DNA from: Cellvibrionales bacterium
GTDB lineage: Bacteria; Pseudomonadota; Gammaproteobacteria; Pseudomonadales; JAHEIH01
DNA length: 64,000 nt
Direction: 5' to 3'
Assembly: GCA_024639455.1 (NCBI GenBank)
Contig: JAHEIH010000007.1
Coordinates: forward strand, 45,119 to 109,118
Shown: positions 15,515 to 51,816 of the stretch, piece by piece
Numbering within the stretch: the first letter of the stretch is position 1
Layout: the number at the start of each line of letters is the position of its first letter
Program-made: the position numbers and the translations under genes
The notes under the pieces: generated by a model
Database searches by the model: none
What the model saw: only the letters and a program-made list of their open reading frames with translations
What the model was told of the DNA's origin: nothing

Positions 15515-16285
15515 TTAATTTTTTGAAGTTAACGCGTGGTCGCGCGCTACATCTTCTGGCAGACGCTCAGCTGTGATCTCTTGGCCTGTGATCGGATGCT
15601 TCTGGTGGAAAGGCACCAGACGATGGCTAGGCCACAACCAAATGTCCTCGCGTGGAATCAGTGCGTCGGGCCCGGCAGGATCTTCTGGGTAGGTGGTGGA
15701 CAAGAAGGGCACGTAATTTTCTTTGGTGTGCGCCCAGCCGGTTTCAAAGTCAGCGTGCCACTGGGGCATATAATTGAGCACATGAATGTGCCATACCCCG
15801 TTTATCTTGCGATAGGTGTTCTCATAGATACCACCTTCCCACCATTGGCGTTGGCGGCCTAGGTAGGTATCGTCGGCAAAATCTTTGTGCTTACCCGCTT
15901 GCATAGTGCAGCGGAAGCGACCGTAGGCGGTTTCGCCATCTTCGGCAATGTCGACGATATCCTGATGCTGTGGGTGGTCGAGTAAGAAACCGTCAACTGG
16001 ACCGTTGTTGCCCTTGGTAAAGTTTTTCTGGAAGCGCTCTACATAAAGGCGCTGTGCGCCGGCCTTATTTTTGTAAATGCCTCCGAAAAAACGCACTTCG
16101 CAATCGGGGGTAAAGAGGTCCACGGCTTCTCTGTAGAGGCATTTATCAAGCAGATAGCCATACAGGTGGTGCAGCTTGCGAATGGCTTGCTCGTCCTCGC
16201 AAACAGTGACGCGGCGCTGTAGCGTGTCTACCAGGCCTTCCAGTCGGGCAATTTTGTCTTCTAGTGCTTTTAAATTGTCGCTCAT
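15515..16285 (-). CDS. Long NTF2-like/SnoaL-type protein, LdpA-like candidate lyase (paralogue 1)
   Basis: This 256-residue protein has an N-terminal coiled coil (about residues 1-35) and then an NTF2/SnoaL-type alpha+beta barrel. Conserved positions shared with three other proteins in the window are Tyr42-Gly-Tyr44, Asp47 and Cys49, a GFLLDHPQHQDIV segment and a WWEGGIYEN segment. Size and organisation resemble LdpA, the cofactor-less NTF2-like diarylpropane lyase of sphingomonads that turns a beta-1 dimer into lignostilbene and formaldehyde. The start overlaps the end of the upstream MFS gene by 4 bases (ATGA), implying coupled translation. Assignment as lyase is inference. Another elimination or isomerisation on an aromatic dimer is possible. 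Confidence 0.7.
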   Translation of the reverse strand: MSDNLKALEDKIARLEGLVDTLQRRVTVCEDEQAIRKLHHLYGYLLDKCLYREAVDLFTPDCEVRFFGGIYKNKAGAQRLYVERFQKNFTKGNNGPVDGFLLDHPQHQDIVDIAEDGETAYGRFRCTMQAGKHKDFADDTYLGRQRQWWEGGIYENTYRKINGVWHIHVLNYMPQWHADFETGWAHTKENYVPFLSTTYPEDPAGPDALIPREDIWLWPSHRLVPFHQKHPITGQEITAERLPEDVARDHALTSKN

Positions 16286-17775
16286 ATGCCTTTACCTTCT
16301 GTTGTTGTCACTGCTGCGGCCTCTTGGACGGCTTTTTGCGCTTCAGCGGCGGCGAGGGCTTCTGCCTCAGCAGCTTCCATGCGTTCGATTTCTTCGCGGT
16401 AGGGTTTGATGCCGCGATACATACTGTAGGTGGCAAGAGGAAGCAAAATGGCGGCGGTACTTACCATCGCTTTCCACAAATCTTGTGGATCCACAAAGAT
16501 GCGTTGCGCCACGGTGCCGATGACCATGCTGCCCATGGCGCCGAAGAAGGTGAACATAAATAGGTAAATGGCAGTGACTTGGCCGCGCATGGCTTGGGGG
16601 GCGATGCGTTGAATGGCCGCGTTCTGAGGCACCGCGCCGGCAATGCCAAAGACCGCGCCAATACTCATGACTATCAGTGAGCTTTCGCCGGTGGGCATCA
16701 TGGGTGCCGCGATAGAGCATACACTGACGCAGGCAAACAAGATGGTGGCGGCGCGAACGTTGGCATCTTTGTAACGCTTTGCTAACCATTCAACGAAAAC
16801 ACCGCCCAGTACCATACCAATCAACGACGCTGCCAAAATCATAGGTGCCATGACTTGGCCAATTTGGGCTTCATCCCAGCCGTAGGTGCGGATCATGAAG
16901 GGGGTGCGCCAGAAGGCGAGGCCTTGCGATTCGATGGCGCTAAGTGCGAGACCGATAAACAGCGGATAATAGACAGCCCCTTTAACATTGATCGCTTTGG
17001 CAGCATCTAGCCCCATAAATGTGAGCACTTTTTTACTCATTGGTGCGCTTTTGTCGGCCACTTCAAACACCGCGTCCGTGCTGGGCGGCATGCGGCGCAC
17101 GGGTTCCTTTAATAGCAGGAAAATACCGCCGATCAACAATCCGGGCATACCAATGACAAGGAGAATGAGTTGCCAGTTATGGATGGTAAGTCCCATCCAT
17201 TGAATGGATTCCATATCGGATACATAGCCAATCATCATGCCGCCGAAATAAACCCCTAGGGTGGTGCCGCCGATAAAGCCTAGCTGTAGCAGAGCGAATG
17301 CGCGTGTGATTTTCTTTGGTGGGAAGGAGTCAGCAAGCATTGAGTACGAGGCCGGTGCGTGGGCTGAGCCGCCGGCGCCGACAAACATACGCGTTGCCAC
17401 AAATTGCCAAAAATTTTGTGCCAGTCCACCCAGTGCTGTGACGGCACCAATGATAGAAATACCCCCTGCGAGTACATATTTGCGGGGGTAGATATCCGCA
17501 AGGCGAGCAATGGGAATGCCGACGAACATATAAAAGATCACGTTGGCGGGGCCGCCTAAGAAACCGAGTTGTTCGTCACTGAGGTCAAATGTGGTTTTGA
17601 TGCGTTCGGCCATCATGCCAAACACGGTGGCATCAAAAAAGTTAATGAACGTCGCTACGATAATAATGGCTAAAGAGCCGTAGGCGGCAGTATTGCTGGG
17701 CCAAGGTTGAGCAACTTTTATATTGTCAGGGTTTTCGACTGTTGTCGTGTGATGAACTGGTGCGCCACCGGCCAT
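16282..17775 (-). CDS. MFS transporter, Spinster-like
   Basis: This 497-residue protein has about 12 hydrophobic segments. Its IPIARLADIYPRKYVL motif A and VGAGGSAHAPASYSMLADSFP stretch are typical of Spinster-type carriers. The C-terminal 35 residues are Ala/Glu-rich and probably form a cytoplasmic helix. TTGGAG lies 8 bases before the ATG. It heads a minus-strand unit with an NTF2-like protein and an aldehyde dehydrogenase, divergent from the Fe(II) oxygenase. The divergent region has two palindrome-type sites. It is a likely importer of an aromatic dimer or acid (inference). Confidence 0.85.
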   Translation of the reverse strand: MAGGAPVHHTTTVENPDNIKVAQPWPSNTAAYGSLAIIIVATFINFFDATVFGMMAERIKTTFDLSDEQLGFLGGPANVIFYMFVGIPIARLADIYPRKYVLAGGISIIGAVTALGGLAQNFWQFVATRMFVGAGGSAHAPASYSMLADSFPPKKITRAFALLQLGFIGGTTLGVYFGGMMIGYVSDMESIQWMGLTIHNWQLILLVIGMPGLLIGGIFLLLKEPVRRMPPSTDAVFEVADKSAPMSKKVLTFMGLDAAKAINVKGAVYYPLFIGLALSAIESQGLAFWRTPFMIRTYGWDEAQIGQVMAPMILAASLIGMVLGGVFVEWLAKRYKDANVRAATILFACVSVCSIAAPMMPTGESSLIVMSIGAVFGIAGAVPQNAAIQRIAPQAMRGQVTAIYLFMFTFFGAMGSMVIGTVAQRIFVDPQDLWKAMVSTAAILLPLATYSMYRGIKPYREEIERMEAAEAEALAAAEAQKAVQEAAAVTTTEGKGI

Positions 17776-17845
17776 AAAATTTCTCCAAGGCTATTGTTAT
17801 TATGCACAGATTGTGTGTTTGAGCTTTTGGCGGATCGATTGATTA

Positions 17846-17916
17846 TGTATCCATTTTGTGTGAAAGTCCTATAAAAACGTAATAATAAGCCCATGTCTAG
17901 CATTATTTTGAATACA
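17846..17916. promoter_or_regulatory. Pair of candidate GntR operators in a divergent promoter
   Basis: TGTATCCA (17846-17853) and TGAATACA (17909-17916) lie 63 bases apart between the MFS and Fe(II) oxygenase genes. Both are variants of the TGTATACA palindrome found in four other divergent regions. Confidence 0.5.
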
Positions 17917-17961
17917 ATTTGTGTTATTTGCCCGAGTATAAAATCAAGGAGAGAATAATAA

Positions 17962-18864
17962 ATGACCTTTGTTAATTTAGATTCAGTGGAGGCTTCTGCG
18001 CGTGCTTTTGAGGCCCAAATTACCTATTTGGAGCCCAATAACCCCATTAATCGTCGCTACGTCTCTGCCGGGCAAGAGGCCAATACGGGCACTTATGCTC
18101 CCTACAACACCGAAGTTCGCGATGGTCGCTCTATTTCTGAGCACTTTAGCTTAGACAAACATGGCTTTGTGCATGGCCGCCATGTAAGCCAAGTGGGTGA
18201 CTTTCTAGATAATGATCAAGTCGCCGCGGCTTACCCTGATGAGGCCATAGCATTAATTAAACAACTCACTGGCGCTGATTTGGTTTTCCCCCAGGGTTGG
18301 ATGGTGCGCACTCCAGGTGAATTGGCTAAAAAGAAAAAAGTTGATGGTTATCAGCACCAGGGTGGCATTCAGCCGCAGGCCGGCGAAGCACATTGCGATT
18401 TTGCGCCGGATGTGGCTGAGATGGTAGCGGAAAATTACTACCGTCAAATGTGTCCGGATGGCAAACCTTACAAGCGCTTTATCTCAGCGAGCCTGTGGCG
18501 TTGTTTTTCTGATGGACCTCAAGATTGGCCATTAGCCCTCTGCGATGGACGAAGCGTCACCCCGGGCGAGGGTATTAAGAATACCTTGGTGGTGGTGGAT
18601 GACATTCCTAGTATTGAACAAATGAAGGCCCCCATTGAAGGCGAAGACAAAATGCTGGCGGCGCACATCTATCAGTTTAATCCAGAGCATCGCTGGTGGT
18701 ATTTCTCTAATATGAATCGCGATGAGTTTTTGTACTTTAAGTTTTACGACAGTGACAGCAGCGTCACTCAGCAGGTGCCGCACACCGCTTTTCATGATAT
18801 AGCGGCTGTCAATCCAACAACCCGAATGAGTATCGAAATGCGTACGATGGCTTACTTCCTCTAA
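17962..18864 (+). CDS. CmcJ/NvfI-family putative Fe(II)/2-oxoglutarate-type oxygenase
   Basis: This 300-residue protein resembles the CmcJ/NvfI (AsaB-like) group of putative non-haem iron oxygenases. The likely iron ligands are His and Asp of AHCDFAP and the distal His of PHTAFHD, with a downstream Arg (TTRMSIEMR) suited to binding 2-oxoglutarate. DEFLYFKFYDS is a second family-like block. AAGGAGAG precedes the ATG by 8 bases. It is 6 bases ahead of a ThDP decarboxylase, so the two are co-transcribed and may act in sequence. Hydroxylation, desaturation or O-demethylation of an aromatic intermediate is possible. I know of no characterised lignin enzyme of this family, so the reaction is open. 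Confidence 0.68.
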   Translation: MTFVNLDSVEASARAFEAQITYLEPNNPINRRYVSAGQEANTGTYAPYNTEVRDGRSISEHFSLDKHGFVHGRHVSQVGDFLDNDQVAAAYPDEAIALIKQLTGADLVFPQGWMVRTPGELAKKKKVDGYQHQGGIQPQAGEAHCDFAPDVAEMVAENYYRQMCPDGKPYKRFISASLWRCFSDGPQDWPLALCDGRSVTPGEGIKNTLVVVDDIPSIEQMKAPIEGEDKMLAAHIYQFNPEHRWWYFSNMNRDEFLYFKFYDSDSSVTQQVPHTAFHDIAAVNPTTRMSIEMRTMAYFL

Positions 18865-18870: not shown

Positions 18871-20418
18871 ATGTTGGTCCGTGACTGTGTTGTAGGATTT
18901 TTGCGAGGCTTAGGTGTCGATCGTATCTTTGGCAACCCGGGGTCTACCGAGTTGCCAATGTTTAAACAATTTCCCGATGACATGGAGTACGTGCTGGCCC
19001 TGCAGGAAGCGTCGGCCGTGGCAATGGCGGACGGTTATGCTTTGGCAGGTGATAGGTTAGGCGTCGTCAGTTTGCACTCCGCCGCAGGTGTTGGAAATGC
19101 CATGGGCAATATCTATACGGCGTTTAAAAATCGAGCCCCTTTGCTGCTTATTGCCGGTCAGCAGGCGCGCGGTATTCTTCCATATGGGCCCTTTTTAGGT
19201 TCTGACGACCCAGAGTTGTTGCCCCAGCCCTATGTGAAATGGAGTTGCCAGCCAGAAGCGGCGGCGGATGTGCCTGCGGCGGTGGCTGAAGCCTATCGTA
19301 TCGCCATGACACACCCGCGCGGCCCTGTGCTAATTTCGGTGCCTGTGGATGATTGGGAGCAGGAAGCCCTTGCGCCGACTGTGCCAGCATTGCCTGCAGT
19401 ATCAACCCTCACGGTATCTCAGCAGGCCGATCTAGTAGAGGCGCTTAATACAGCTCAGTCACCAACCCTTGTTGTTGGGCCTGAAGCAGCTAGAGCGTGG
19501 TCCGGTGTTATTGCGCTAGCTGAACATATAGGTTCCCCTGTTTGGGTCAGTCCGTTTTCTCATCAGGCGAGTTTTCCAGAAGACCATCCGTTGTTTGCGG
19601 GTTTTTTGCCAGCGATGCGCGAGGGTATCGTACAGCGTTTGCAGCCCTACGATCTGATCGTGGTGTTGGGCGCCCCTGTGTTCACGTATCATATCGACGG
19701 GAAGGGCCCATTTATCCCGTTTCACAGTCGTTTGATACAAATTACCGAATGCCCTCGCGTGGCGTCTCAAGCGGCCGTCGGCGAGTCGATGGTGGCAGAT
19801 GTAGCGGCGTGCGTCAGCGCTTTATTAGACGCTTCAAATTTAGCGTCGAGGCCTGCTACTTTTATAAAGCCGCCTCCAAAGGCTTGCTCCGACGAGGTAT
19901 TGACAGGGCGTGTGCTGATGCAGGCTCTGGCGAAGTGCATGCCTGAGGGATGTGTTTTAGTAGAAGAATCGCCTTCTACGCGCGCTGTCATGCATGACTA
20001 TCTTCCCGTGGTGACCGAATGCAGTTTCTATACTTGCGCTAGTGGTGGACTGGGGTACAGTTTGCCGGCGGCAGCGGGGGTAGCTATGGCCCTGCCAGAT
20101 AAGTCCGTGTTGGCATTATTGGGTGATGGCTCTTCGTTGTACTCCGTTCAAGCGCTATGGAATATGGTGCAAGCCCGCTTGCCGGTTGTGGTAGTCATAG
20201 TGAACAACGGTTGTTACAAGGCGCTCAGTGAATTTTCCCAGCATTTTGGTCTCACTCGCCTTGTTGGCACCGAGTTGCCAGGTATTGATTTTCTGGCTCA
20301 GGCGCAGACTTTCGGAATGCGAGCGGAATCGATTAAAGACCCTGCTGAGCTTGAGAGTAGGCTGCACGCTGCTTTTGCAGCGCGCGCACCGGTCTTACTC
20401 GATATCCATGTTACTTAG
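18871..20418 (+). CDS. ThDP-dependent decarboxylase, benzoylformate-decarboxylase-like
   Basis: This 515-residue protein has the three-domain layout of ThDP enzymes. It is close to benzoylformate decarboxylase (MdlC) in its N-terminal half (FGNPGSTELPMF, ALQEASAVAMADGYA). The catalytic set known from that enzyme is present: Ser25, Glu46 and His69, each one position earlier than in the Pseudomonas enzyme, and a later His in GAPVFTYH matching its His281. The ThDP/Mg motif GDGSSLYSVQ to VNNG lies near the C-terminus. The enzyme would convert an aryl-glyoxylate, for example vanilloylformate, to the aldehyde. The gene ends 8 bases inside the converging stilbene dioxygenase gene. The exact 2-oxoacid is inferred. 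Confidence 0.85.
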   Translation: MLVRDCVVGFLRGLGVDRIFGNPGSTELPMFKQFPDDMEYVLALQEASAVAMADGYALAGDRLGVVSLHSAAGVGNAMGNIYTAFKNRAPLLLIAGQQARGILPYGPFLGSDDPELLPQPYVKWSCQPEAAADVPAAVAEAYRIAMTHPRGPVLISVPVDDWEQEALAPTVPALPAVSTLTVSQQADLVEALNTAQSPTLVVGPEAARAWSGVIALAEHIGSPVWVSPFSHQASFPEDHPLFAGFLPAMREGIVQRLQPYDLIVVLGAPVFTYHIDGKGPFIPFHSRLIQITECPRVASQAAVGESMVADVAACVSALLDASNLASRPATFIKPPPKACSDEVLTGRVLMQALAKCMPEGCVLVEESPSTRAVMHDYLPVVTECSFYTCASGGLGYSLPAAAGVAMALPDKSVLALLGDGSSLYSVQALWNMVQARLPVVVVIVNNGCYKALSEFSQHFGLTRLVGTELPGIDFLAQAQTFGMRAESIKDPAELESRLHAAFAARAPVLLDIHVT

Positions 20419-21877
20419 CGCTATCGAGCTGCTGCCGGTCTACCCAGTGGCCGTGGACACCCTGGCGTAATCGCACGGGCAGTTTCACTTTGGCGATCGG
20501 GCCGGCAGCGATATTCTCAGCGTCTAGTATGTGCAGCTCGCTGAGCATGGTGTCGAAGTTGTTCGCAACGCCCATCAGAAAGCCAGAGCCCTCTGGCGCC
20601 TCCGCTGATTTGGGTACAAACTGGCACTCTTGCAGAGTGTAATTTTCCCCGGGGAAGTAGGTTTGTGCGCTGCCTTTATCGTGATCGAAGCGAACCCAGG
20701 TGTTGATGGTCATGCCGACGTTGCCCGCCATACTGGCTGAGCGGGGTTTGGTCGGGTCCATGCAGGGCATGAAGCCCACGTTGTATGGTCGCGACCAGTA
20801 GCGCTCATCGGTGCGCGGTAGGACGCCAATTTGTGGGTACATGACTTCGGTTTGGTAGGTGGTGGCTGCTGGATCAGCAAGATCGATGGTGATGCGGGTT
20901 AAGCGGCCGGAGGCGCGTTCGAGATCAAATTGTTCGTGTAAGCTTGGGAAGAATGGGAATTGGTTGCCGGTGGCCATGTCCATGTCGACAATGATTTTGC
21001 TACCGTCATTAAATCCATTCATCACGTGGGTGGCACATTTTTCCGGGCCTTCGTACCAGCGAATATCGCTGCCATCGCCGTGACGTGAGACAACGCCAAA
21101 GTAGCTAGGCAAGCTAGAGTCCCACGCAAAGTGAACGCCCCCTTGCTCCATTTGCTCAACGTTAACCGCCATCGGTACGCACAGTATGGCGATATGTGTC
21201 TCTGTAATGGCAAAGTCGTGAATCATGCCTGAATAAGGAACTTCAATCCACGCCTCGCGAGCCACCTCGCCATGCTTGTCGATGGTATAGAGCGCCACGT
21301 CTTTACTTGCTTCGCCCTTGGCCTCGTAGGCCAGGCCAATCATCTCGTCTGTCTGCGGATCGATCTTGGGGTGGGCAGTGAAGGTTTTGGCGGTCATTTT
21401 TCCGCCAAAGGTGTAGTAGTCGTCGATACTCTTCAGTGTGTAAGGGTCAATATGTACCGGTGGGCTGTCCTCTTTGAGGGCAAAGAGCTTGCCTGCATGG
21501 AAGACGAGGTTGGTGTTGGCTGTGCCGCCGCTCAATCCCTTCACTTCATCAAGGTCGGTGCGTGGGTTGCGATAGGTGCCAAACAGTGCTTTACGGGCGC
21601 TAGCCTGCGCTTTATAGCGCTGGGTTTCAACGTGGTGGGTTTTAATATCCACGTGACCGTTGCTAAAACTGAACAACGTCACGTTGCCGTCGCCGTTAAA
21701 GGGGACGTCGTTGGCATAACGCGGTGGGTAGATAAAGTCAGGCTGAATGCGATAGAAGTGGCCGTTAAGTTCGGTGGGTATTTCACCTTCGTGTTCGGCA
21801 TCGTGCAAATCGATGTTCATTCGAAACGGCGCATTAAACCCCATGAAGCCAGGATTTTTCGGAAATTCTAATGACAT
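20411..21877 (-). CDS. Lignostilbene-alpha,beta-dioxygenase-type carotenoid oxygenase
   Basis: This 488-residue protein is a non-haem iron oxygenase of the carotenoid cleavage family. The four iron-binding histidines are placed as expected (His169, His220, His284, His475). The residues that define the lignostilbene branch are present as Phe60, Tyr102 and Lys135, one position later than in the Sphingomonas enzyme. In that enzyme Tyr and Lys act on the 4-hydroxyl group of the stilbene. The enzyme should cleave a hydroxystilbene at the central double bond to two vanillin-type aldehydes. AAGGAAC precedes the ATG. It lies 51 bases behind an LdpA-like NTF2 gene, the same pairing of stilbene maker and stilbene cleaver known from sphingomonads. 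Confidence 0.88.
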   Translation of the reverse strand: MSLEFPKNPGFMGFNAPFRMNIDLHDAEHEGEIPTELNGHFYRIQPDFIYPPRYANDVPFNGDGNVTLFSFSNGHVDIKTHHVETQRYKAQASARKALFGTYRNPRTDLDEVKGLSGGTANTNLVFHAGKLFALKEDSPPVHIDPYTLKSIDDYYTFGGKMTAKTFTAHPKIDPQTDEMIGLAYEAKGEASKDVALYTIDKHGEVAREAWIEVPYSGMIHDFAITETHIAILCVPMAVNVEQMEQGGVHFAWDSSLPSYFGVVSRHGDGSDIRWYEGPEKCATHVMNGFNDGSKIIVDMDMATGNQFPFFPSLHEQFDLERASGRLTRITIDLADPAATTYQTEVMYPQIGVLPRTDERYWSRPYNVGFMPCMDPTKPRSASMAGNVGMTINTWVRFDHDKGSAQTYFPGENYTLQECQFVPKSAEAPEGSGFLMGVANNFDTMLSELHILDAENIAAGPIAKVKLPVRLRQGVHGHWVDRQQLDSAK

Positions 21878-21928: not shown

Positions 21929-22642
21929 TTATTCTTGTTCGGGGCGAGGGCGTTGGCCTTCCCAGGGGGCGCCTGTGGTTGGGTGTGGATAGTGGAAGTC
22001 CACCACATCCACCTCGGGCCAGCTGACCGCAGTGTGGTCAATGGCATCGGGGCCGACGGGGTTGCCAGGGTAGAGATCCGCCTCGGTGTAGAACGGTACG
22101 AAGTTGGGTTTGGTGTAGGCCCAGCCATTTTCAAAGGTGCCGTGGAAGGCGCAGCGATAATTTAAGCGCTTTATTTTCCAAACGCCATCGACTTTGACAT
22201 ATTCGTTTTCATAGACGCCGCCTTCCCACCACTGGCGAGTGTCGACGCCTGCCATCATGTGCATGCCGGCCTGCATCATACTGCGGAAGCGACCTTTGGC
22301 GCTTTTGCCGTCGTCACTAATGGTGACGATGCCTTGCATTTGGGCGTGGTCGAGTAGGAACCCGAAGACTGGACCGTTGTAGTCATTGGTGAATTTTTTC
22401 CGAAAACGACCAATGTATAAGCGTGCAACGGAGGCTTTACTTTTGAAGGCGCCGCGCAGGAAAACGACTTCGCCATCGTCGGCAAATAGATCTACCACCT
22501 CTTCGTAGAGGCATTTGTCTAGGTAGTAACCATAGCTGAATTGAAGGCGCTCAATAGCGAGGCGGTCTTCAACATTCGTTAACCGATGGGTCAGTGCTGC
22601 CACTTGCTGGGTTAGCTGTTCAATCTGGTTGTTCTCGGTCAT
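21929..22642 (-). CDS. Long NTF2-like protein, LdpA-like candidate diarylpropane lyase (paralogue 2)
   Basis: This 237-residue protein has an N-terminal coiled coil (about residues 5-30), then an NTF2-like fold with Tyr37-Gly-Tyr39, Asp42 and Cys44, GFLLDHAQMQGIV and WWEGGVYEN. It has the size expected of LdpA. It is directly upstream of a lignostilbene dioxygenase on the same strand, which makes it the strongest of the four paralogues as an LdpA-type gamma-formaldehyde lyase giving lignostilbene from a diarylpropanediol. AAGGAT precedes the ATG. The promoter region carries two perfect TGTATACA sites. Function is inferred from fold, length and partner gene. The catalytic residues of LdpA were not checked by alignment. 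Confidence 0.75.
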   Translation of the reverse strand: MTENNQIEQLTQQVAALTHRLTNVEDRLAIERLQFSYGYYLDKCLYEEVVDLFADDGEVVFLRGAFKSKASVARLYIGRFRKKFTNDYNGPVFGFLLDHAQMQGIVTISDDGKSAKGRFRSMMQAGMHMMAGVDTRQWWEGGVYENEYVKVDGVWKIKRLNYRCAFHGTFENGWAYTKPNFVPFYTEADLYPGNPVGPDAIDHTAVSWPEVDVVDFHYPHPTTGAPWEGQRPRPEQE

Positions 22643-37968: not shown

Positions 37969-38157
37969 TTAGAAGCTGTATTTAAGACCTACGGTGTAAC
38001 GGCGGCCTAATTGGTCGAAGAGGCTCTCGTTCACTTGATCAGAGGCGCCGAGGAACACCGAGTAATAGGGCGTCACTGGGCGGGCGCGGTCGGTGATATT
38101 GGTCATATTACCGAACACTTCAAAGGTAGATCCATTACTCAGCTTTTGCGTTTTCAT
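37969..38157 (-). pseudogene. Remnant of a TonB-dependent receptor (C-terminal end only)
   Basis: These 62 codons encode a typical receptor C-terminus: FEVFGNMTNITDR (the usual penultimate barrel segment), a PYYS turn region and the final strand RRYTVGLKYSF ending in Phe. Nothing resembling the plug or the rest of the barrel lies upstream. The reading frame runs straight back into the last codons of the NTF2-like gene, which overlaps it by 23 bases in another frame. The remnant has no signal peptide and cannot work as a receptor. It is best explained by a deletion that removed the 5' part of a receptor gene. Confidence 0.72.
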
Positions 38158-41727: not shown

Positions 41728-41743
41728 AGGTTGATTCCTTTGG

Positions 41744-42891: not shown

Positions 42892-43395
42892 TTATTTTTT
42901 ACGAAGCATTAAGGAGGCGGGGCGTTTGCGCGGCTCCCACTGTCCTTTTTCGGGAAAGTTCTGCAGTATTTCACCGTCCCAAAGGCGAATGACGCGGCGC
43001 GTGAATAGCCATTCACCGTCGGCTTGCTTTTCGGCAATATCATTGTAATAGCCGGTGAATCTCAGCACGTAAGGCGGTTCACCTTCGCATTCAGTCACGA
43101 AGGCAAAGGAGCGCATGCTGACGTGTGTGTCGTCCACCACGTTGAATTGGGTTTGGGTGACGTGGTGCTGGCGACCTGCAAAACCGGGTGCGCCAAAGTA
43201 GTGATCGGCAAAATCGCGAATGCCTTGGTGGCCGGGCCAAATGTCGGGATCTTCAAATACCTCTTCGCGAACTTCACAGTCCTCGGTGAAACATTTGATC
43301 ATACCCTCAACATCGCCTGTGTCGAGGGACCAAGCGTAAGCGGCGATAAGGTCTGTTAAGGCGAGGCGGTCTTCAATAGCGAGTCGATTTTTCAT
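42892..43395 (-). CDS. Short NTF2-like (SnoaL-type) protein
   Basis: This 167-residue protein has the single-domain NTF2-like fold of SnoaL-4-type proteins: AIEDRLALTDLIAAYAWSLDTGDVEGM, a WPGHQGIRDFA segment and a RRVIRLWDGE strand. It lacks the N-terminal coiled coil and the YGY motif of the four long paralogues. AGGATAATCC precedes the ATG. It is first in a minus-strand unit divergent from the VAO-type flavoprotein, with the MarR-type box between. NTF2-like proteins of this size include small dehydratases, isomerases and ring-hydroxylating dioxygenase beta subunits. No alpha subunit is nearby, so a lyase/isomerase is favoured. Confidence 0.72.
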   Translation of the reverse strand: MKNRLAIEDRLALTDLIAAYAWSLDTGDVEGMIKCFTEDCEVREEVFEDPDIWPGHQGIRDFADHYFGAPGFAGRQHHVTQTQFNVVDDTHVSMRSFAFVTECEGEPPYVLRFTGYYNDIAEKQADGEWLFTRRVIRLWDGEILQNFPEKGQWEPRKRPASLMLRKK

Positions 43396-43592: not shown

Positions 43593-43656
43593 TATTGAAA
43601 GGCCTGTTCATTATGTTATCTTCAATAAAAATAAAAACACTATGGAGACGTTCCTA

Positions 43657-45225
43657 ATGAAGCGCGTATTGCCGCCTAATGTGTCTGCCGCCCAATTTAA
43701 GGATGCCCTTGCTGATTTTGCCAAGGCCATCGGTAGTGATTGGGTATTGTCATCCGATGAAGATATTGCGACCTATTCTGATATCTACAACCCCGGTCCA
43801 GAGGAGGAATGGCTGCCCTCAGCGGCCGTGGCGCCTGGCTCGGTCGAAGAGGTGCAGGAAGTCGTCAGGATTGCCAATAAATACAAAACGCCATTGTGGA
43901 CGGTAGCTCGAGGCAAAAACCTTGGCTATGGCACCGCCGCGCCGCGTTTGCCTGGCAGCATCGTGCTCGACATGGGGCGCATGAAGAAGATTCGCATGGT
44001 CGATGAAGAGCTTGGCTACTGTGTGATTGAGCCCGGGGTGAGTTTCTTTGATCTCTATGAGCACCTGCAAAAAATGGGTGGCAAACTTATGATGTCGGTG
44101 CCCGGTAACGGCTGGGGCTCTGTCATGGGTAACGCGCTTGATCACGGCGTGGGATATACCCCTTACGGTCTTCACGCCAGTAAGATCTGCGGTATGGAAG
44201 TCGTTATGCCAGACGGCGGCATGCTGCGCACCGGTATGGGGGCGATGGAGGGAAACCATGCCGCGCATTTATTCCCCTTTAACTATGGTCCCACGTGGGA
44301 TCAGATGTTTACCCAGTCCAACTTAGGTATTGTCTGCAGTATGGGGCTTTGGTTGATGCCAACCCCGGATTCTTCGCTGCAGCTGACCATCGATATCCCC
44401 AAAGCGGAAGATATTGGCTGGGTCATCGATACATTGACGCCCTTAAAAGTGAGCGGACTGATCGATCAAAATGTGTTTATTCCCAGCTGGCTGGGAAAGA
44501 TCTCCGTGATTGGGACGCGCAAGGATTTTTGGGATAAGCCGTCGGCGATCCCGGAGTGGCGTGTTAATGAGCTCCTCAAGCAATATAAGTTGGGCTATTG
44601 GCAGGTCAGCATGCGTCTATATGGCGAAGTGGATGTTGTGAAGGCGAAGGCCGAGGTCGTTAAAACGGCATTCCGTAAACAGACTGATCAGCCCATTGAC
44701 GAATTGTGGTGGCATAAGGGTGACCCTACCAATGTCATGGATACCACGCTGGGTGTCCCTACCGCGGTGCCCTTGCAAATGGGTGCGTGGGTTGGCGGCC
44801 GCAGTGCCCACCTCGGATTCTCTCCGGTGGTGCCCGCGCAGTCTAGCCATGTGTTGGGCCAGCTCAAACGTAGCCAAGAGCTGTACGCAAAGTACGACGT
44901 TGATTTCTACGCGAGCTTTACCATCGGTGGTCGATTTGTGAACAACATCAATATGCTGATGTTCGATCGAGATAAGCCTAAAGATGTGCAAAACATTAAA
45001 GATCTTTTCGATGAATTGATTGTGGTCACTAAAGAAGCGGGCTATGGCGAATACCGAACCCATCTCAACTGGATGGATGAGGTCGCACAAACCTTTGATT
45101 ACGGAGATAACGCCATGACGCGTTACAACGAAATTGTCAAAGATGCTCTTGACCCCAATGGTATTTTGTCACCAGGTAAACAAGGTGTATGGCCTCGCGC
45201 TTACCGCCAATTCGCAAGGAGATAA
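43657..45225 (+). CDS. Vanillyl-alcohol-oxidase/4-cresol-dehydrogenase-type flavoprotein
   Basis: The ATG at 43657, with GGAG 9 bases upstream, is preferred to 43642, giving 522 residues. The N-terminal FAD domain has the pyrophosphate loop RGKNLGYGTAAPR, SVPGNGWGSVMGNALDHGVG, and an NLGIVCSMGLWLMP block. The C-terminal cap ends in GYGEYRTHLNWMDEV and DPNGILSPGKQGVWP, all typical of VAO, eugenol oxidase and the PchF subunit of 4-cresol dehydrogenase. These enzymes oxidise para-alkyl phenols through a quinone methide. The next gene is a cytochrome c, so this is probably a flavocytochrome like PchFC or eugenol hydroxylase. The cap strand where the covalent flavin residue is expected is Asn-rich (FVNNINML), and I could not assign a flavin-linking residue. 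Confidence 0.87.
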   Translation: MKRVLPPNVSAAQFKDALADFAKAIGSDWVLSSDEDIATYSDIYNPGPEEEWLPSAAVAPGSVEEVQEVVRIANKYKTPLWTVARGKNLGYGTAAPRLPGSIVLDMGRMKKIRMVDEELGYCVIEPGVSFFDLYEHLQKMGGKLMMSVPGNGWGSVMGNALDHGVGYTPYGLHASKICGMEVVMPDGGMLRTGMGAMEGNHAAHLFPFNYGPTWDQMFTQSNLGIVCSMGLWLMPTPDSSLQLTIDIPKAEDIGWVIDTLTPLKVSGLIDQNVFIPSWLGKISVIGTRKDFWDKPSAIPEWRVNELLKQYKLGYWQVSMRLYGEVDVVKAKAEVVKTAFRKQTDQPIDELWWHKGDPTNVMDTTLGVPTAVPLQMGAWVGGRSAHLGFSPVVPAQSSHVLGQLKRSQELYAKYDVDFYASFTIGGRFVNNINMLMFDRDKPKDVQNIKDLFDELIVVTKEAGYGEYRTHLNWMDEVAQTFDYGDNAMTRYNEIVKDALDPNGILSPGKQGVWPRAYRQFARR

Positions 45226-45227
45226 CA

Positions 45228-45632
45228 ATGAAGACACCTCTTTTGTTTGGCTTTATGTTGGCCGTGAGCTCGCTGGGCGCTGCGGCTGAAAATAGCGGCA
45301 TGCCGCCGCTGCCTCCCCATCAAATGCGCCTAGAAGTACCCGATGGAGATCGAACACAAAGTCCAGCCAGCGGTGAGCAACTGTTTTCTAATGCTTGTGG
45401 ATACTGCCATCTAACGTTTGGTATGGGCACCAATGTGTTAATGGGACGCCGTATGGCAATGGGTTTGCCTCCCCAAACAGCGTTGTTGGCAAATCGGACC
45501 GACTTAACGGCCGATTACATCGCCATGGTGGTGCGATCGGGTCAGGGCGATATGCCACGCATTACTCGCGTCGACCTCACCGATTCAGAGTTGGCACTGG
45601 TGGCGGAGTATTTAACGAGGAATAACCCATGA
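45228..45632 (+). CDS. Periplasmic c-type cytochrome subunit of the flavoprotein
   Basis: The ATG at 45228 has AAGGAG 7 bases upstream. It is 3 bases past the flavoprotein stop, and a longer overlapping frame is not favoured. The 134 residues begin with a signal peptide (about 1-21, ending GAAAE). The haem site is ACGYCHL, with methionines downstream (for example GDMPRI) as possible sixth ligand. Its size and place match the PchC/EhyB cytochrome subunit, which takes electrons from the flavin. The stop codon overlaps the next start (ATGA). Confidence 0.87.
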   Translation: MKTPLLFGFMLAVSSLGAAAENSGMPPLPPHQMRLEVPDGDRTQSPASGEQLFSNACGYCHLTFGMGTNVLMGRRMAMGLPPQTALLANRTDLTADYIAMVVRSGQGDMPRITRVDLTDSELALVAEYLTRNNP

Positions 45633-46064: not shown

Positions 46065-46610
46065 ATGACACTCATGGTAAAACAGATTGATAGCGGTTCG
46101 TCGTCGGTCGAAGACGACGCTGTCGCTGTATACGACCCCATCGACACGTTGAACCGATTTCTTAAGCTGCACCAGTGCCTTTGGCGAGCTTTCAGCGTCA
46201 ATATGCAAGATAAGTTTGACGTGAATCTGAATGACTTTCGGGTCATCATGATGGTCGGCGAGATGGGTGAAACTGCCTCTTATGAGATCGCCGAGGTCAC
46301 TGGTATGCCTGAAATGGCCATCTCCCGAACCATGTCTTCACTGGAGCAGCGCGGCCTTATTATTCGTAAGGTGGATGAAAAAAACCGGCGCCGTAAGTCG
46401 GTCGTGTTGTCGGCCGATGGCCAAACGCTGTTTGACGCCATGATCCCCTCCAGTCGGCGCGTGGCGGATTTCTTGTTTGATTCTTTGAAATTGCATGAAG
46501 CGCTTAGTTTTGACGAATATCTAAAAACGTTGACCGATCGTGTGACCCAGGTCGACGACAGCGGCGAATCAATCTTTTTACAGGCCACGCGCCCCAGTAA
46601 CGCGGAGTAA
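46065..46610 (+). CDS. MarR-family transcriptional regulator
   Basis: This 181-residue protein has a winged helix centred on residues 65-110: FRVIMMVGEMGETASYEIAEV, the recognition helix MPEMAISRTMSSLEQRG and the wing KVDEKNRRRKSVVLS. Dimerisation helices lie at both ends. Either the ATG at 46065 or that at 46074 may be used. It lies inside the operon that begins with the VAO-type flavoprotein and is the obvious candidate for binding the TATCGTTTGTTAT boxes. MarR proteins of phenolic pathways usually release DNA on binding an aromatic acid or its CoA ester. The ligand here is unknown. Confidence 0.87.
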   Translation: MTLMVKQIDSGSSSVEDDAVAVYDPIDTLNRFLKLHQCLWRAFSVNMQDKFDVNLNDFRVIMMVGEMGETASYEIAEVTGMPEMAISRTMSSLEQRGLIIRKVDEKNRRRKSVVLSADGQTLFDAMIPSSRRVADFLFDSLKLHEALSFDEYLKTLTDRVTQVDDSGESIFLQATRPSNAE

Positions 46611-46615
46611 TTTCC

Positions 46616-48079
46616 ATGAGTAATGCTTTTAATATCGCTAATCCCGATAAAATTTTTGTTGATGGCGTTTGGCGCGCCGCTAGTGGTGGTCAATTTCATT
46701 TAACTAACCCGGCGACCGAAGAGGTCTTTATCAGTGTGGCTCAGGCGTCTGAGCAAGACGTTGACGTTGTGGTGGCTGCCGCCGTTAAAGCCTTTGAAGA
46801 GGGGCCTTGGCCGCAGTATTCTCCAGCAAAACGCGCCGAGTATATTCGCGCCATGGCGGCCGCTTTGGGGGAGCGTCAGGCAGATTTAGAACAGGCGTTC
46901 ATTCAGCAGGTGGGCGGTTTGGCGACCTTTGCCCCGTTTGCCGTGGGTGGTGCTACCGCCACGCTGGCACGCTACGCGGATATTGCTGAAAGTTATGCCT
47001 GGGAAGAGGTTGTGCCAAGTTCGGTGCCCGGTCACGAAGCGCGTATTATGCGCGACCCTGTCGGCGTGGTGGCTGCCATTGCCCCCTGGAATATGCCGTA
47101 CTCGATTATGATCCAAAAGATCGCACCAGCACTGGCGGCCGGGTGTCCTGTCATTGTTAAGCCCTCGCCAGAGACGCCGCTTGAGGCTTACATCATCGCT
47201 GAAGCTGCTGATAAAGCGGGCCTGCCCCCTGGGGTGATTGGTTTGTTGCCCGCCGATCGGGATGCTTCCGATTACTTGGTAAGACACAGCGGGGTCGACA
47301 AAATCAGTTTTACCGGTTCGACCTTGGCGGGTAAGCGCATCGGCAGTGTGGCGGCAGAGCGAGTGGCACGAGTGACCTTAGAGCTAGGAGGTAAGTCACC
47401 CGCGATCGTATTGGAAGACGCGCCGGTTGAAATGGCGGCAGATATCATCGCTGGGTCTGGCTGTATGTTAACTGGCCAAGTGTGCGCGCTGTTGAGTCGT
47501 GTGATTGTGCCGGAAAGTATGCACGATGCGTTAGCTGAGGCCATTGCGCAACGCTTTGCCGCGGTCAATGTTGGCGACCCTAACGATCCGGCGACACAGA
47601 TGGGCCCCATCGCGATGGCGCGTCAATTAGCGCGAGTTGAATCTTATATTACCCTTGGGGTAGAAGAGGGTGCCACCCTTAAGTGTGGCGGCCAGCGCCC
47701 AGCAAACGTGGGCAAGGGATACTACATCGAGCCAACCCTGTTTACCCATGTCGATAACAGTATGCGCATTGCCCGTGAAGAAATATTTGGCCCGGTGTTG
47801 GTCCTCATTCCTTACCGTGACCTCGAGCATGCTATTGAGATTGCCAACGACACCAGCTATGGCCTTAACTCATCCGTGATTACTACCGATGCTAGCCAAG
47901 TAACGGCTATTGGGCGCCGCTTGCGTGCGGGTAACGTGGCACAAAATGGGTTAAAAGCCGACTTTGAACTGCCTTTCGGTGGTTTCAAAGAGTCGGGTGT
48001 GGGTCGTGAAGGCGGCGTTGAAGGCATTCAGCCCTACACCGAAACAAAAATCATTCTGACCGAGGTGGCTAGCGCATGA
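46616..48079 (+). CDS. NAD(P)-dependent aldehyde dehydrogenase
   Basis: This 487-residue ALDH has IAPWNMPY, FTGSTLAGK, ELGGKSP as general base and the catalytic cysteine in TGQVCALL near residue 290. LPFGGFKESGVGREGG lies near the end. GGAG precedes the ATG. The last 4 bases overlap the start of the PQQ dehydrogenase (ATGA). In this operon it would oxidise the aldehyde made by the flavoprotein or the PQQ enzyme, for example a vanillin-type aldehyde. Confidence 0.9.
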   Translation: MSNAFNIANPDKIFVDGVWRAASGGQFHLTNPATEEVFISVAQASEQDVDVVVAAAVKAFEEGPWPQYSPAKRAEYIRAMAAALGERQADLEQAFIQQVGGLATFAPFAVGGATATLARYADIAESYAWEEVVPSSVPGHEARIMRDPVGVVAAIAPWNMPYSIMIQKIAPALAAGCPVIVKPSPETPLEAYIIAEAADKAGLPPGVIGLLPADRDASDYLVRHSGVDKISFTGSTLAGKRIGSVAAERVARVTLELGGKSPAIVLEDAPVEMAADIIAGSGCMLTGQVCALLSRVIVPESMHDALAEAIAQRFAAVNVGDPNDPATQMGPIAMARQLARVESYITLGVEEGATLKCGGQRPANVGKGYYIEPTLFTHVDNSMRIAREEIFGPVLVLIPYRDLEHAIEIANDTSYGLNSSVITTDASQVTAIGRRLRAGNVAQNGLKADFELPFGGFKESGVGREGGVEGIQPYTETKIILTEVASA

Positions 48080-50268
48080 TACATTTCACAACCTCCTGGC
48101 GGCTAGGAATGGGCGCCTTGATGATCGGAGTGGGGTTGTCGGCGTGCTCTGCACCTGAGTCGTCGAGCCCTGTTATTTCTGGGTGGTCTACCCCCGGCGG
48201 AGATAGCGGAAAAACCTTCTACTCGCCGTTGCAGCGCATTAATCGCAACAACGTGGCGCAGTTGGGGTACGCCTGGGAGTTTGATCTGGAAGTGAGTCGA
48301 GGTCAGGAATCTACGCCAGTTTTAGTTGGCGATACCATGGTGGTAAGCACTAACTTAGGTCGTGTCTATGGAATCGACCCTGTGACCGGCCAAGAGCGTT
48401 GGCGCTATGTGCCCAGTGTGGATATGCAGGTTAACCGCACCGCTTGCTGCGACCAAGTGAATCGCGGTGTGGCGGTGAAGGGAAATAGTGTATTTGTCGG
48501 CACGCTAGACGGTGATTTGGTGGCGCTCGACGCGCGAGATGGTCGCGTGCTGTGGCAGGCGGATACGCTGGCGGGTACGGCTGACCGTGGTCAAAACATC
48601 ACTGGCGCTCCCGAGGTGGCGGGCGATGTCGTGATCATTGGTCACGGTGGTGCTGAATATGGCGTGCGTGGTTATGTGACTGCCTTTGATGTTAACACCG
48701 GTGAGCAAAAGTGGCGCTTCTTTACCGTGCCCAGTGATCCTGCCGACGGCCCTCAACATAATGCGGCCTTGGAGGCGGCAGTGCCTACCTGGCAAGGCGA
48801 TGTGAAATGGGAGCATGGTCTTGGCGGTACGGTGTGGGATGCGATTCACTACGACCCGCAGTTTGATGTGGTGTATATAGGCGTCGGTAACGGTGGCCCA
48901 TACCATGCCATGAAGCGCTCTTCGGAAGGTGGCGACCATTTGTATTTGTCATCGATTGTGGCACTTAAACCCAGTGATGGTAGTGTGGTGTGGCACTATC
49001 AAACGACCCCGATGGACAGTTGGGACTTTACCGCGACTGCGCCGATGATTTTGACGGATTTGAGCATCGACGGTGAGCAGGTTCCCGCGCTAATTCACGC
49101 GCCCAAAAATGGCTTTATGTATGTGTTTGATCGGCGCGACGGCAAGTTGCTTAAGGCCAATTCCATCGTCTTCCAAAATTGGACCAAAGGCATAGACCCG
49201 GAGACAGGTAAGGCCATCATCGATTTCGAACAGGCCGATTATTTTGCTTCGCCCAAGGTGATTTACCCCGCTACCCCCGGTGCGCGCAATTGGCACCCTG
49301 CCTCATACAACCCTGACACCGGTTTGTACTATGCCTCGGTGCAAGAGTTGGGTAATTTGATTCTTACCACGCCGGGCGATAAGCCCTACCGCGCGAAATC
49401 CTTAGGCGCCGATGCAGCGTTGGTTTATACCTCTGATCTACTCAATATTCTGCCTGGGATGCCGCCATTTATTGGTGATGCGGTGAAGGCGTTGCCGGTG
49501 TACGAGCGCATAGAAAAAGGGGGCGATAATTCGTACCTACGAGCGATTGATCCTCTGACCGGCAAAACCGCCTGGTCGGTGCCCGCCACCAGTTGGCAAG
49601 ACCGCGCGGGTGTATTAACCACGGCCGGTGATTTGGTGTTTCATGGTGATGCTTCAGGTAAATTTACCGTCTACGATGCCGCGACCGGCGAGGAGCTGCA
49701 CAGTTTGCAAACGGGCACCACCATCATGGCGGCGCCGATGAGTTACAGCATTGATGGCGAGCAGTATGTTGCCGTGACCGCAGGCTGGGGCGGCGGTGGC
49801 TGGCCCTACGTGCCTCGCGCCGCTGCATCTTATAAGTATGAAAATAACGGTCGCCTGTTGGTCTTTAAACTCGGCGGTGGCGCCGTGCCCCTGCCCAAAG
49901 AACTGCCCGCGATGACGGTGGCGCCTGAGCCTCCACCGATGCCCGAGGGCGCCGATCCGACCAATGGTTTTAACCTCTACATGTCGAGCTGCGTGCTATG
50001 CCATGCCAGCCAACAGCGCACGATGGCCGCTGATCTGCGTCGCATGGAATCCATTACGCACGAAATGTTCGATCGCATTGTGCTGGAGGGTATCTTTGTT
50101 TCCGCAGGTATGCCGCGTTGGGATGATCTGTTTACGCCGCAGGATGTTAAGGATATCCATGCGTATCTGATCAGTGAACAACAAAAAACACGCGCGCATG
50201 AATTAAAACTACAAGAAAAAGGCTTGCCACTAGACGCGGTTAATTCGGGTGTTTTGTCTAGCTACTAG
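48076..50268 (+). CDS. PQQ-dependent quinohaemoprotein alcohol dehydrogenase (lipoprotein)
   Basis: This 730-residue protein has a lipobox (GLSAC, near residue 24) and a PQQ propeller with the vicinal cysteine pair in RTACCDQVNRG. The catalytic Asp lies in DSWDFTATAP, with Thr two positions later, arguing for calcium. A C-terminal cytochrome c has CVLCHA near residue 640. It is a paralogue of the enzyme at 26.7-28.8 kb, with an extra segment near residues 455-490. Translation is coupled to the aldehyde dehydrogenase through a 4-base overlap. The alcohol substrate is unknown, and an aromatic side-chain alcohol is inferred. Confidence 0.9.
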   Translation: MIHFTTSWRLGMGALMIGVGLSACSAPESSSPVISGWSTPGGDSGKTFYSPLQRINRNNVAQLGYAWEFDLEVSRGQESTPVLVGDTMVVSTNLGRVYGIDPVTGQERWRYVPSVDMQVNRTACCDQVNRGVAVKGNSVFVGTLDGDLVALDARDGRVLWQADTLAGTADRGQNITGAPEVAGDVVIIGHGGAEYGVRGYVTAFDVNTGEQKWRFFTVPSDPADGPQHNAALEAAVPTWQGDVKWEHGLGGTVWDAIHYDPQFDVVYIGVGNGGPYHAMKRSSEGGDHLYLSSIVALKPSDGSVVWHYQTTPMDSWDFTATAPMILTDLSIDGEQVPALIHAPKNGFMYVFDRRDGKLLKANSIVFQNWTKGIDPETGKAIIDFEQADYFASPKVIYPATPGARNWHPASYNPDTGLYYASVQELGNLILTTPGDKPYRAKSLGADAALVYTSDLLNILPGMPPFIGDAVKALPVYERIEKGGDNSYLRAIDPLTGKTAWSVPATSWQDRAGVLTTAGDLVFHGDASGKFTVYDAATGEELHSLQTGTTIMAAPMSYSIDGEQYVAVTAGWGGGGWPYVPRAAASYKYENNGRLLVFKLGGGAVPLPKELPAMTVAPEPPPMPEGADPTNGFNLYMSSCVLCHASQQRTMAADLRRMESITHEMFDRIVLEGIFVSAGMPRWDDLFTPQDVKDIHAYLISEQQKTRAHELKLQEKGLPLDAVNSGVLSSY

Positions 50269-50287
50269 TCACGCATGGAGAAAAGCG

Positions 50288-51094
50288 ATGCAAAGTGCAC
50301 TAACAGGAAAGGTGGTTTTTATTACTGGCGGTGGTCGAGGCCTGGGTGAAATTATGGCCAAGGCGCTCGCTCGTGAAGGTATGGCGATTGGCATTACTGC
50401 GCGTTCGCAAGACCAATTGGAGCGGGTGCGAGACGAGTTAAAAGGTTTGGGGGCTAGGGTGTCTATCGCCGTTGCCGATGTCACCGATAAGTCGCAAGTC
50501 GAGGCGGCGATTGCCCATGTCGAAAGTGAGTTGGGCGACATCGACTGCTTAATTAACAATGCCGGTGTGGACGATCCTTTTGGTCCGGTGGGGGTGATCG
50601 ATCCCGAGCAGTGGTGGCAAACTCAGGCGGTTCACGTGATGGGCCCTATGTATACTATGTCTAATCTCGTGCCAAAAATGAAGGCGCGCGGTGAGGGGCG
50701 TATCATCAACGTGTGCTCTATGGCGGGTACGATTGTGCAGCCAAACATGTCGGCCTACGCCGTGGCCAAAAATACTGAAATTTGTCTCAGTAAGCACGTG
50801 GCCGCCGAGTGCGAGGGCAGCGGCGTGAGTGTCTTTGCCATTGAGCCGGGAACAATCTTAACCGGTATGGCAGACAGCACCTTGAGCAACCCCGATGCCA
50901 TCAAGTGGGTGCCCTTTGGTATCGAGTATTTGAAGTCGATAACCCCGGAGGCCTCAGAGGCATCCAAGCAGCGTTTACAAGCGATGGTCGTCGAGTTGCT
51001 CGGTGGTCAGTGCGATGCACTCTCAGGTCAATACTTAGAGCCGGGAGATGACTTCGCTGCAAAAATTCAACAGGTGGCCACGGCCGCACAATAA
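50288..51094 (+). CDS. Short-chain dehydrogenase/reductase
   Basis: The ATG at 50288 (TGGAGAAAAGCG upstream) gives 268 residues. An earlier start would overlap the PQQ gene. This classical SDR has FITGGGRGLGEIM, NNAGVD, Ser in VCSMAG and YAVAK. It lacks the long C-terminal extension of the LigD-like genes, though its C-terminus has a lid-like segment. It lies between the PQQ dehydrogenase and an LdpA-like gene in the same operon and would act on a secondary alcohol or ketone of the same substrate. Confidence 0.83.
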   Translation: MQSALTGKVVFITGGGRGLGEIMAKALAREGMAIGITARSQDQLERVRDELKGLGARVSIAVADVTDKSQVEAAIAHVESELGDIDCLINNAGVDDPFGPVGVIDPEQWWQTQAVHVMGPMYTMSNLVPKMKARGEGRIINVCSMAGTIVQPNMSAYAVAKNTEICLSKHVAAECEGSGVSVFAIEPGTILTGMADSTLSNPDAIKWVPFGIEYLKSITPEASEASKQRLQAMVVELLGGQCDALSGQYLEPGDDFAAKIQQVATAAQ

Positions 51095-51111
51095 TAAAAC
51101 AGGAGTTCTCC

Positions 51112-51816
51112 ATGTCATTAGAGCAAACCATCGCCCAAATGCAGCAGCAAATGAGCGATATGCAGCGCGAGATAACGCGCTTAAACGACGCTGCCGAAGT
51201 GCGAAAATTGCACCATAAATACGGTTATTTTATCGACCATTGTCGCTACGATGAGACGGTTGATTTGTTCGATGAGGAAGAGGGTGAAGTCTATTTCCTA
51301 AACGGTGTTTACAAGGGGCGCGCTGGCATTACCCGTTTGTACTGCGACTGGTTCCGCAATATGTTTACCCGTGGTGTCAACGGCCCGATTCCAGGTTTCT
51401 TACTGGATCACTTTTTGTCACAGGATATTGTTGATATTTCTGAGGGCGGCAATACCGCGTGGGTGCGCGCCCGTTGCATCATGATGGCGGGTTACCACGA
51501 GAGCGTCGAAAACCTCGTGCCAGAAATGCCCCGTAGTTGTTGGGAAGGCGGTATTCACGAAAATACTTACATTAAAAAAGATGGCGTGTGGAAAATCAAA
51601 ACCCTGAACTACAACATGTTGTGGCAAGCGGACTACGCCAAGGGTTGGGGTGCTAGCGATGTGCACTTACTGCCGTTGACGAAAACGTATCCAGAAGATC
51701 CCTCTGGGCCCGATTATTTGCGCGATGCCATTCCGCCCACTTGGCCCAATACGCGCCACGTGCCCTATCACTATAAGCATCCGGTGAATGGCAAAGACGT
51801 ACCTTACGGCGAGTAG
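51112..51816 (+). CDS. Long NTF2-like protein, LdpA-like candidate lyase (paralogue 4)
   Basis: This 234-residue protein has a coiled-coil N-terminus rich in Gln and Met, then Tyr37-Gly-Tyr39, Asp42 and Cys44, GFLLDHFLSQDIV and a CWEGGIHEN segment. AGGAG precedes the ATG. It is the last gene of the eight-gene operon starting with the VAO-type flavoprotein. The core blocks match paralogues 1-3, but the family has diverged: this member has Ile and His where others have Leu and Tyr in the WEGG block. A formaldehyde-releasing or dehydrating lyase on an aromatic dimer is inferred. Confidence 0.72.
   Translation: MSLEQTIAQMQQQMSDMQREITRLNDAAEVRKLHHKYGYFIDHCRYDETVDLFDEEEGEVYFLNGVYKGRAGITRLYCDWFRNMFTRGVNGPIPGFLLDHFLSQDIVDISEGGNTAWVRARCIMMAGYHESVENLVPEMPRSCWEGGIHENTYIKKDGVWKIKTLNYNMLWQADYAKGWGASDVHLLPLTKTYPEDPSGPDYLRDAIPPTWPNTRHVPYHYKHPVNGKDVPYGE

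Follow-up and report, generated by a model that had tools for sequence, protein, structure and literature searches.

In a 64,000-nucleotide stretch of the genome of a Cellvibrionales bacterium (GenBank assembly GCA_024639455.1, contig JAHEIH010000007.1, positions 45,119 to 109,118; "the window"), we examined four proteins related to the lyases LdpA and PcfL. We will call them NTF_A, NTF_B, NTF_C, and NTF_D. They are from the LdpA/PcfL branch of the NTF2-like superfamily and are probably gamma-formaldehyde lyases that work without a cofactor and that feed two lignostilbene dioxygenases (CCD1 and CCD2), which are encoded in the same gene island. A first-pass annotation of the window had proposed that the four proteins cover different dimers. 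By orthology and synteny, the identification of NTF_A as PcfL (phenylcoumaran or beta-5 dimers) and of NTF_C as LdpA (beta-1 dimers) is well supported; NTF_B and NTF_D belong to lineages without a characterized member. Overall, the proposal appears largely right, both for the family and for the two substrates that we predict from orthology.

All four open reading frames were found where the first-pass annotation had placed them (Table 1). It had not given their strands, which are reverse for NTF_A, NTF_B, and NTF_C and forward for NTF_D. The mechanically-called reading frame of NTF_C starts upstream, at 39013. However, a ribosome-binding site (AAGGAAG) accompanies the ATG at 38848, which also agrees with the start that is typical of the family. 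The four proteins are 41-52% identical to each other (BLASTP, E values of 1e-55 to 1e-82), so their likeness is not due to chance. The only Pfam domain in any of them is SnoaL_4. NCBIfam has no model for them, and a search of Rfam gave no matches. A whole-genome search of the 2.88 Mb assembly found these four members of the family only. All of them lie within 36 kb, each in a separate transcription unit with different partner genes.

The four proteins share the motifs YGYxxDxC and GFLLDH, as well as a third block that reads WWEGG in NTF_A and NTF_B, FYEAG in NTF_C, and CWEGG in NTF_D. The supposed coiled-coil start corresponds to a single N-terminal helix, roughly 40 residues long, in AlphaFold2 models of NTF_B and NTF_D. 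The fixed cysteine of YGYxxDxC is present in all four proteins. We ruled it out as a catalytic signature because the corresponding residue (Asn42 of LdpA) is asparagine in both of the crystallized LdpA proteins, as it is throughout 89% of the LdpA clade.

The comparison with LdpA itself (Saro_2805 and SLG_12650; PDB 8abt-8abw) supports the description of all four proteins as LdpA-like. They are 43-57% identical to the crystallized LdpAs over 218-230 amino acids, and in phmmer searches against PDB, the LdpA chains 8abt-8abw were the sole matches of NTF_A and NTF_D. NTF_C is the closest (57% identical to NaLdpA and 55% to the other), while NTF_A, NTF_B, and NTF_D are 43-44% identical and lie outside the LdpA clade. 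We compared structural models for NTF_B and NTF_D, and we compared NTF_A and NTF_C by sequence. For the model of NTF_D (pLDDT of 88), the top structural matches were all LdpA, with TM scores of 0.82-0.87. For the model of NTF_B (pLDDT of 89), LdpA gave Z scores of 26-27, and the next match gave 16. The next fold matches of the two models were scytalone dehydratase, LinA, and bile-acid dehydratase, which scored far below LdpA. The window proteins and LdpA have in common the NTF2-like fold, the long N-terminal helix, a C-terminal extension, and a set of invariant residues.

We based the active-site comparison on the family-invariant residues and on the title of PDB entry 8abu, which is the H97Q mutant of NaLdpA with erythro-DGPD. 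The first-pass annotation had proposed that the absence of LdpA's catalytic residues from all four proteins would count against it; we found that the catalytic H97 is conserved in every one, as H104 of NTF_A, H99 of NTF_B, H97 of NTF_C, and H100 of NTF_D. Also conserved are Y35, Y37, D40, R72, Y74, Q101, R116, H126, E143, N149, Y151, W158, Y165, and H223 (8abt numbering). The decarboxylases PhcF and PhcG, which had been suggested as further relatives for comparison, are not NTF2 proteins: along with their relative PinX, they are DUF3237 proteins, so we ruled them out.

To place the four proteins, we built trees of 51-56 family members. NTF_A falls in the PcfL clade and NTF_C falls in the LdpA clade (support of 100/99-100 in each case). 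NTF_B and NTF_D were placed outside of both clades. NTF_D groups with proteins from Steroidobacteraceae and sphingomonads (99/98 and 100/93), in a clade that includes loci L075, L082, and L223. NTF_B is alone on the PcfL side, with support of 99/97 for the wider group in one tree. At the 26 alignment columns that separate LdpA from PcfL, NTF_A has the PcfL residue nearly throughout, NTF_C has mostly LdpA residues, NTF_B is mostly PcfL-like, and NTF_D is mostly LdpA-like. At the position that is F141 in LdpA and W141 in PcfL, NTF_D has cysteine. The four proteins are separate lineages that diverged anciently, and they are not local duplicates.

Members of the LdpA family are rare. Among 57 relatives from the same order, they were found in its own genus only, and across the class, they were found in 2 of 369 genomes, including its own. 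In one sphingomonad family, 41 of 299 genomes have them: nine have three copies, and two have four copies, so the four copies in the window are a high number but not unique. The second LdpA-family protein of SYK-6 (G059 4091647-4092339; L142:9133-9861) is 49% identical to NTF_B. As in the region around NTF_D, it adjoins SDR3-, VAO-, and cytochrome-like genes. It forms its own clade, separate from those of the window proteins, and we found no characterized function for it.

Gene neighborhoods support the assignment of NTF_C. In SYK-6, the SDR beside LdpA is where LdpB has been placed (PMC12997858), and LdpA-clade genes are paired divergently with an LdpB-like SDR at 44 of 64 loci. In the window, the genes at 38135 and 38955 have the same arrangement.

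NTF_A is 61-70% identical to the PcfL proteins of sphingomonad loci. N. aromaticivorans DSM 12444 was absent from the 80 loci that we compared; we identified PcfL via a locus of N. subterraneum (L141) that is syntenic, and the PcfL-locus protein of N. subterraneum is about 63% identical to NTF_A. The sphingomonad locus has the order MFS-PcfL-FerD-LigW-MFS-DUF3237-LsdD, plus two SDRs; PcfL is Saro_0796, FerD is Saro_0797, LigW is Saro_0799, and LsdD is Saro_0802 (PMC11323797). SYK-6, which is reported to lack PcfL, has otherwise the same locus with PcfL missing. Like PcfL, NTF_A has the clade's diagnostic residues and adjoins a transporter from the same MFS family. Homologs of FerD and LigW are also in the island, but they are 5-8 kb from NTF_A and in another operon, and CCD1, the dioxygenase closest to NTF_A, shares just 40-43% identity with LsdD. 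In Novosphingobium sp. RL4 and Sphingobium sp. V4, the cluster of MFS, PcfL, FerD, LigW, and LSD genes is carried by large plasmids (L160:11524-12762; L161:12001-12756). These plasmids, of which the one from Sphingobium was typed as conjugative, are a possible route for transfer of the cluster.

NTF_B shares its operon with CCD1, which follows it on the same strand, and this pair is also present in the one genome from the same genus that we compared (93% and 88% identity). CCD1 and CCD2 are the only RPE65-family genes in the genome, and both are in the island. CCD1 scores below the NCBIfam equivalog cutoff. It retains F59, Y101, N120, and K134 and has threonine at the position of Ser283 of LsdD (reference residues are from PMC8191317). 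The phenol-binding Tyr101 and Lys134 and the four histidine ligands are conserved in both proteins.

NTF_D comes last in a closely packed operon (MarR, aldehyde dehydrogenase, PQQ dehydrogenase, SDR3, and NTF_D), with overlaps of 4 and 20 bp and then a gap of 17 bp. This unit lies within a cluster that resembles the pin (pinoresinol) cluster of Novosphingobium rhizosphaerae LY (PinZ-PinU; PMC12607616). Window positions 46065-58850 encode PinX-, PinW-, PinU-, and PinZ-like proteins as well as companion proteins (aldehyde dehydrogenase, PQQ dehydrogenase, SDR4, and SnoaL), and relatives of these companions travel with pin genes in SYK-6 and in Novosphingobium (L015-L017). The genes for CCD2 and the NmrA-family reductase are coupled in the same way as pinU and pinZ of strain LY. 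PinX is a DUF3237 protein (PMC12607616). The window encodes one DUF3237 protein, at 54370, and it is closer to PinX-type proteins of SYK-6 (58-60% identity) than to the PhcG/PhcF-type tandem pair (41% and 38%). Judging from the synteny with L015-L017 and SYK-6, a PQQ dehydrogenase is probably encoded immediately upstream of pinX in strain LY (among R9J51_00390/00395). The window differs from the LY cluster in that an SDR and NTF_D are inserted after the PQQ dehydrogenase; in the pinoresinol pathway of strain LY, no LdpA-type lyase has been reported as a step.

In a Parasphingopyxis-like sphingomonad genome (G986; L223 and L229), a single stretch encodes a protein that is 60% identical to NTF_D along with PinX, PinZ, CCD2, SnoaL, SDR4, PQQ dehydrogenase, aldehyde dehydrogenase, MarR, and a VAO-cytochrome pair. 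In other sphingomonads (L026, L035, L162, and L224), a different clade of the LdpA family, which is linked to CmcJ-like genes, is in a similar place. This comparison of clusters suggests that lyases of the LdpA/PcfL family serve beta-beta dimers. We tentatively propose, as one possibility, that NTF_D is the gamma-formaldehyde lyase of a beta-beta (lignan) route. It might convert lariciresinol to imperanene and formaldehyde in one step that replaces PinY and PinX, or it might deformylate a hydroxylated imperanene, giving diguaiacylbutadiene. A 2026 review noted that the step from lariciresinol to imperanene could potentially be taken over by a homolog of PcfL (PMC12997858). NTF_D is a candidate for this lariciresinol-type lyase, and so is the CmcJ-linked clade.

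From family membership, conserved residues, separate phylogenetic origins, and synteny, all of which we observed, we infer all of the chemistry and all of the substrates. For LdpA, a mechanism has been proposed in which dehydration yields a quinone methide, which is subsequently deformylated (PMC12997858). By analogy, the conserved His/Asp/Tyr site would ionize the para-hydroxyaryl unit, and the oxygen substituent at C-alpha (hydroxyl in diarylpropanediols, aryl ether in phenylcoumarans) would be expelled to form the quinone methide. C-gamma would then depart as formaldehyde, and the two rings would be left connected by an alkene. The stilbene-type product of each lyase would go to one of the two dioxygenases. 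NTF_A would act on beta-5 dimers and NTF_C on beta-1 dimers. For NTF_D, which is the terminal gene of an operon inside a pinoresinol-type cluster, the likeliest substrate would be a beta-beta-derived C-gamma alcohol. NTF_B would be a lyase from the PcfL side of the family that is expressed together with its own dioxygenase, CCD1.

Several observations weigh against parts of this proposal. PinZ/CCD2-type genes are also near ordinary LdpA genes in sphingomonads (25 of 55 loci), so the neighborhood of NTF_D is no proof of a beta-beta substrate. The pin neighborhood is present at two of the four loci of the NTF_D clade, and the other two have no pin genes in the DNA that we saw. NTF_B has a long branch, which one tree groups with the PcfL side (97/78) and the other with L151 (84/41), and its lineage was seen in its own genus only. 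More generally, clade membership is well supported but the substrates are not: PcfL and LdpA have 8 of 11 active-site residues in common (PMC11323797), so a handful of substitutions may be enough to alter specificity.

The identity of the invariant residues in all four proteins would also fit isozymes that act on the same few dimers, such as G/G, G/S, and S/S variants or stereoisomers, and that are set apart by ring substitution or regulation instead of by linkage. DesA, which is encoded beside the island, shows a capacity for syringyl compounds. LdpA takes either erythro enantiomer, and DC-A, DC-L, and DC-C are all substrates of PcfL (PMC12997858, PMC11323797). But the diagnostic residues of NTF_A and NTF_C are those of two distinct clades whose proven linkages differ, and the four genes lie in four transcription units, each with its own partners. 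We consider isozymes to be rather unlikely. If the four genes had arisen by recent tandem duplication within the lineage, they might be functionally redundant, and the presence of the genome's only family members within 36 kb would be expected. However, NTF_A, NTF_C, and NTF_D group with proteins from other bacteria, and approximately unbiased (AU) tests reject a single clade of all four (p = 3e-5), of NTF_A with NTF_B (p = 0.003), and of NTF_C with NTF_D (p = 4e-5). We therefore reject recent duplication, and redundancy of this kind is very improbable.

It is unlikely, although somewhat plausible, that NTF_B and/or NTF_D carry out another NTF2-type reaction (dehydration, isomerization, or decarboxylation) on dimer intermediates. 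NTF2-like folds catalyze many reactions, as the two dehydratases and LinA among the next fold matches illustrate, and the cysteine of NTF_D at the F141 position matches neither LdpA nor PcfL. On the other hand, NTF_B and NTF_D retain all of the family-invariant residues, including H97, and they are about 44% identical to LdpA over its full length, including the C-terminal extension that the other NTF2 matches lack.

In the literature that we found, substrates have been assigned to just two members of this lyase family. The window adds two further lineages (NTF_B and NTF_D), in strong genomic context and outside of the sphingomonads. If NTF_D does act on beta-beta dimers, then along with NTF_A (beta-5), NTF_C (beta-1), and NTF_B (a further dimer), one scaffold would serve at least three types of carbon-carbon linkage within a 45 kb island.

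Table 1. The four LdpA-family genes and other genes of the island, in window coordinates. Percentages are amino acid identities.
Feature	Position	Strand	Remarks
NTF_A	15515-16285	-	256 amino acids; PcfL clade; predicted gamma-formaldehyde lyase
NTF_B	21929-22642	-	237 amino acids; LdpA family; own lineage on PcfL side of tree
NTF_C	38135-38848	-	237 amino acids; LdpA clade; predicted erythro-diarylpropanediol lyase
NTF_D	51112-51816	+	234 amino acids; LdpA family; clade without a characterized member
FerD-like aldehyde dehydrogenase	8565-9995	+	66-70% to the aldehyde dehydrogenase directly after PcfL in sphingomonads
LigW-type 5-carboxyvanillate/5-carboxyferulate decarboxylase	10005-11057	+	564 bits to PDB 4inf; 72% to PcfL-locus LigW
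Aldehyde dehydrogenase	14075-15499	-	Follows NTF_A within one operon; operon kept in same-genus genome G001
MFS transporter	16282-17775	-	Overlaps start of NTF_A; 61-64% to MFS beside PcfL in sphingomonads
CCD1, lignostilbene dioxygenase homolog	20411-21877	-	51 bp after NTF_B; PDB and NCBIfam matches
SDR1, C-alpha-dehydrogenase type (beta-O-4)	29676-30572	+	436 bits to 3ioy; 180-214 bits to C-alpha-dehydrogenases
LdpB-like SDR, divergent from NTF_C	38955-39866	+	74% to SYK-6 SDR beside LdpA
VAO1, vanillyl-alcohol-oxidase (VAO) type flavoprotein	43642-45225	+	PDB matches; 57% to VAO beside the L223 NTF_D locus
Cytochrome c	45189-45632	+	Overlaps VAO1
MarR regulator	46065-46610	+	First gene of NTF_D unit; MarR also beside NTF_D-type gene in L223
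Aldehyde dehydrogenase, pin-cluster type	46616-48079	+	52% in aldehyde dehydrogenase-PQQ-PinX group of SYK-6
Pin-cluster-type PQQ alcohol dehydrogenase that has a cytochrome c domain	48076-50268	+	54-55% to gene upstream of SYK-6 PinX and to L223
SDR3	50249-51094	+	Directly upstream of NTF_D; SDR3-like genes adjoin other LdpA-family members
Short SnoaL protein, pin-type module	53206-53598	+	55% in L223
SDR4, pin-type module	53608-54360	+	56% in L223; 57-58% in L015-L017
DUF3237 decarboxylase, PinX-like	54370-54873	+	Pfam DUF3237, 124 bits
VAO2, VAO-type flavoprotein, PinW-like	54877-56427	+	45% to VAO of SYK-6 DUF3237-SnoaL-VAO-cytochrome group
CCD2, NOV2/LsdA/PinU-type lignostilbene dioxygenase	56461-57924	+	Passes NCBIfam NOV2 equivalog cutoff (764 vs. 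650 bits)
NmrA-family reductase, PinZ-like	57921-58850	+	Overlaps CCD2 by 4 bp; 56% to protein at SYK-6 PinZ position; 63% in L229
LigF-like beta-etherase glutathione S-transferase (beta-O-4)	58894-59637	-	406 bits to PDB 4xt0 (LigF)

The window also encodes other glutathione S-transferases. Directly after the island, within 12 kb (L149:1376-12019, G000 C25), are genes for LigA/LigB (protocatechuate 4,5-dioxygenase), DesA (858 bits, with a cutoff of 800), and LigM (733 bits, with a cutoff of 580), and MTHFR-like and PurU genes are directly downstream as well. Thus, a funnel for ring cleavage and demethylation adjoins the island. With genes for beta-O-4, beta-5, beta-1, and beta-beta dimers beside those for ring cleavage and demethylation, this compact island could be a useful source for lignin-dimer engineering.

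The window contains a few other genes. The protein at 17962-18864 has no match in Pfam, and its relatives (44-46% identity) adjoin LdpA-family and PinX-type genes of sphingomonads; we provisionally take it to be CmcJ-like. A sulfatase (Pfam Sulfatase, 36199-37956) lies inside the otherwise aromatic-dimer island. A DUF1993 protein (41188-41796) and a short SnoaL_4 protein (42892-43395) both have a zinc alcohol dehydrogenase as their neighbor. The island ends with a tandem pair of genes (60590-62649), one for a small cytochrome-like protein and the other for a protein with Vgb-lyase/carboxypeptidase-regulatory domains.

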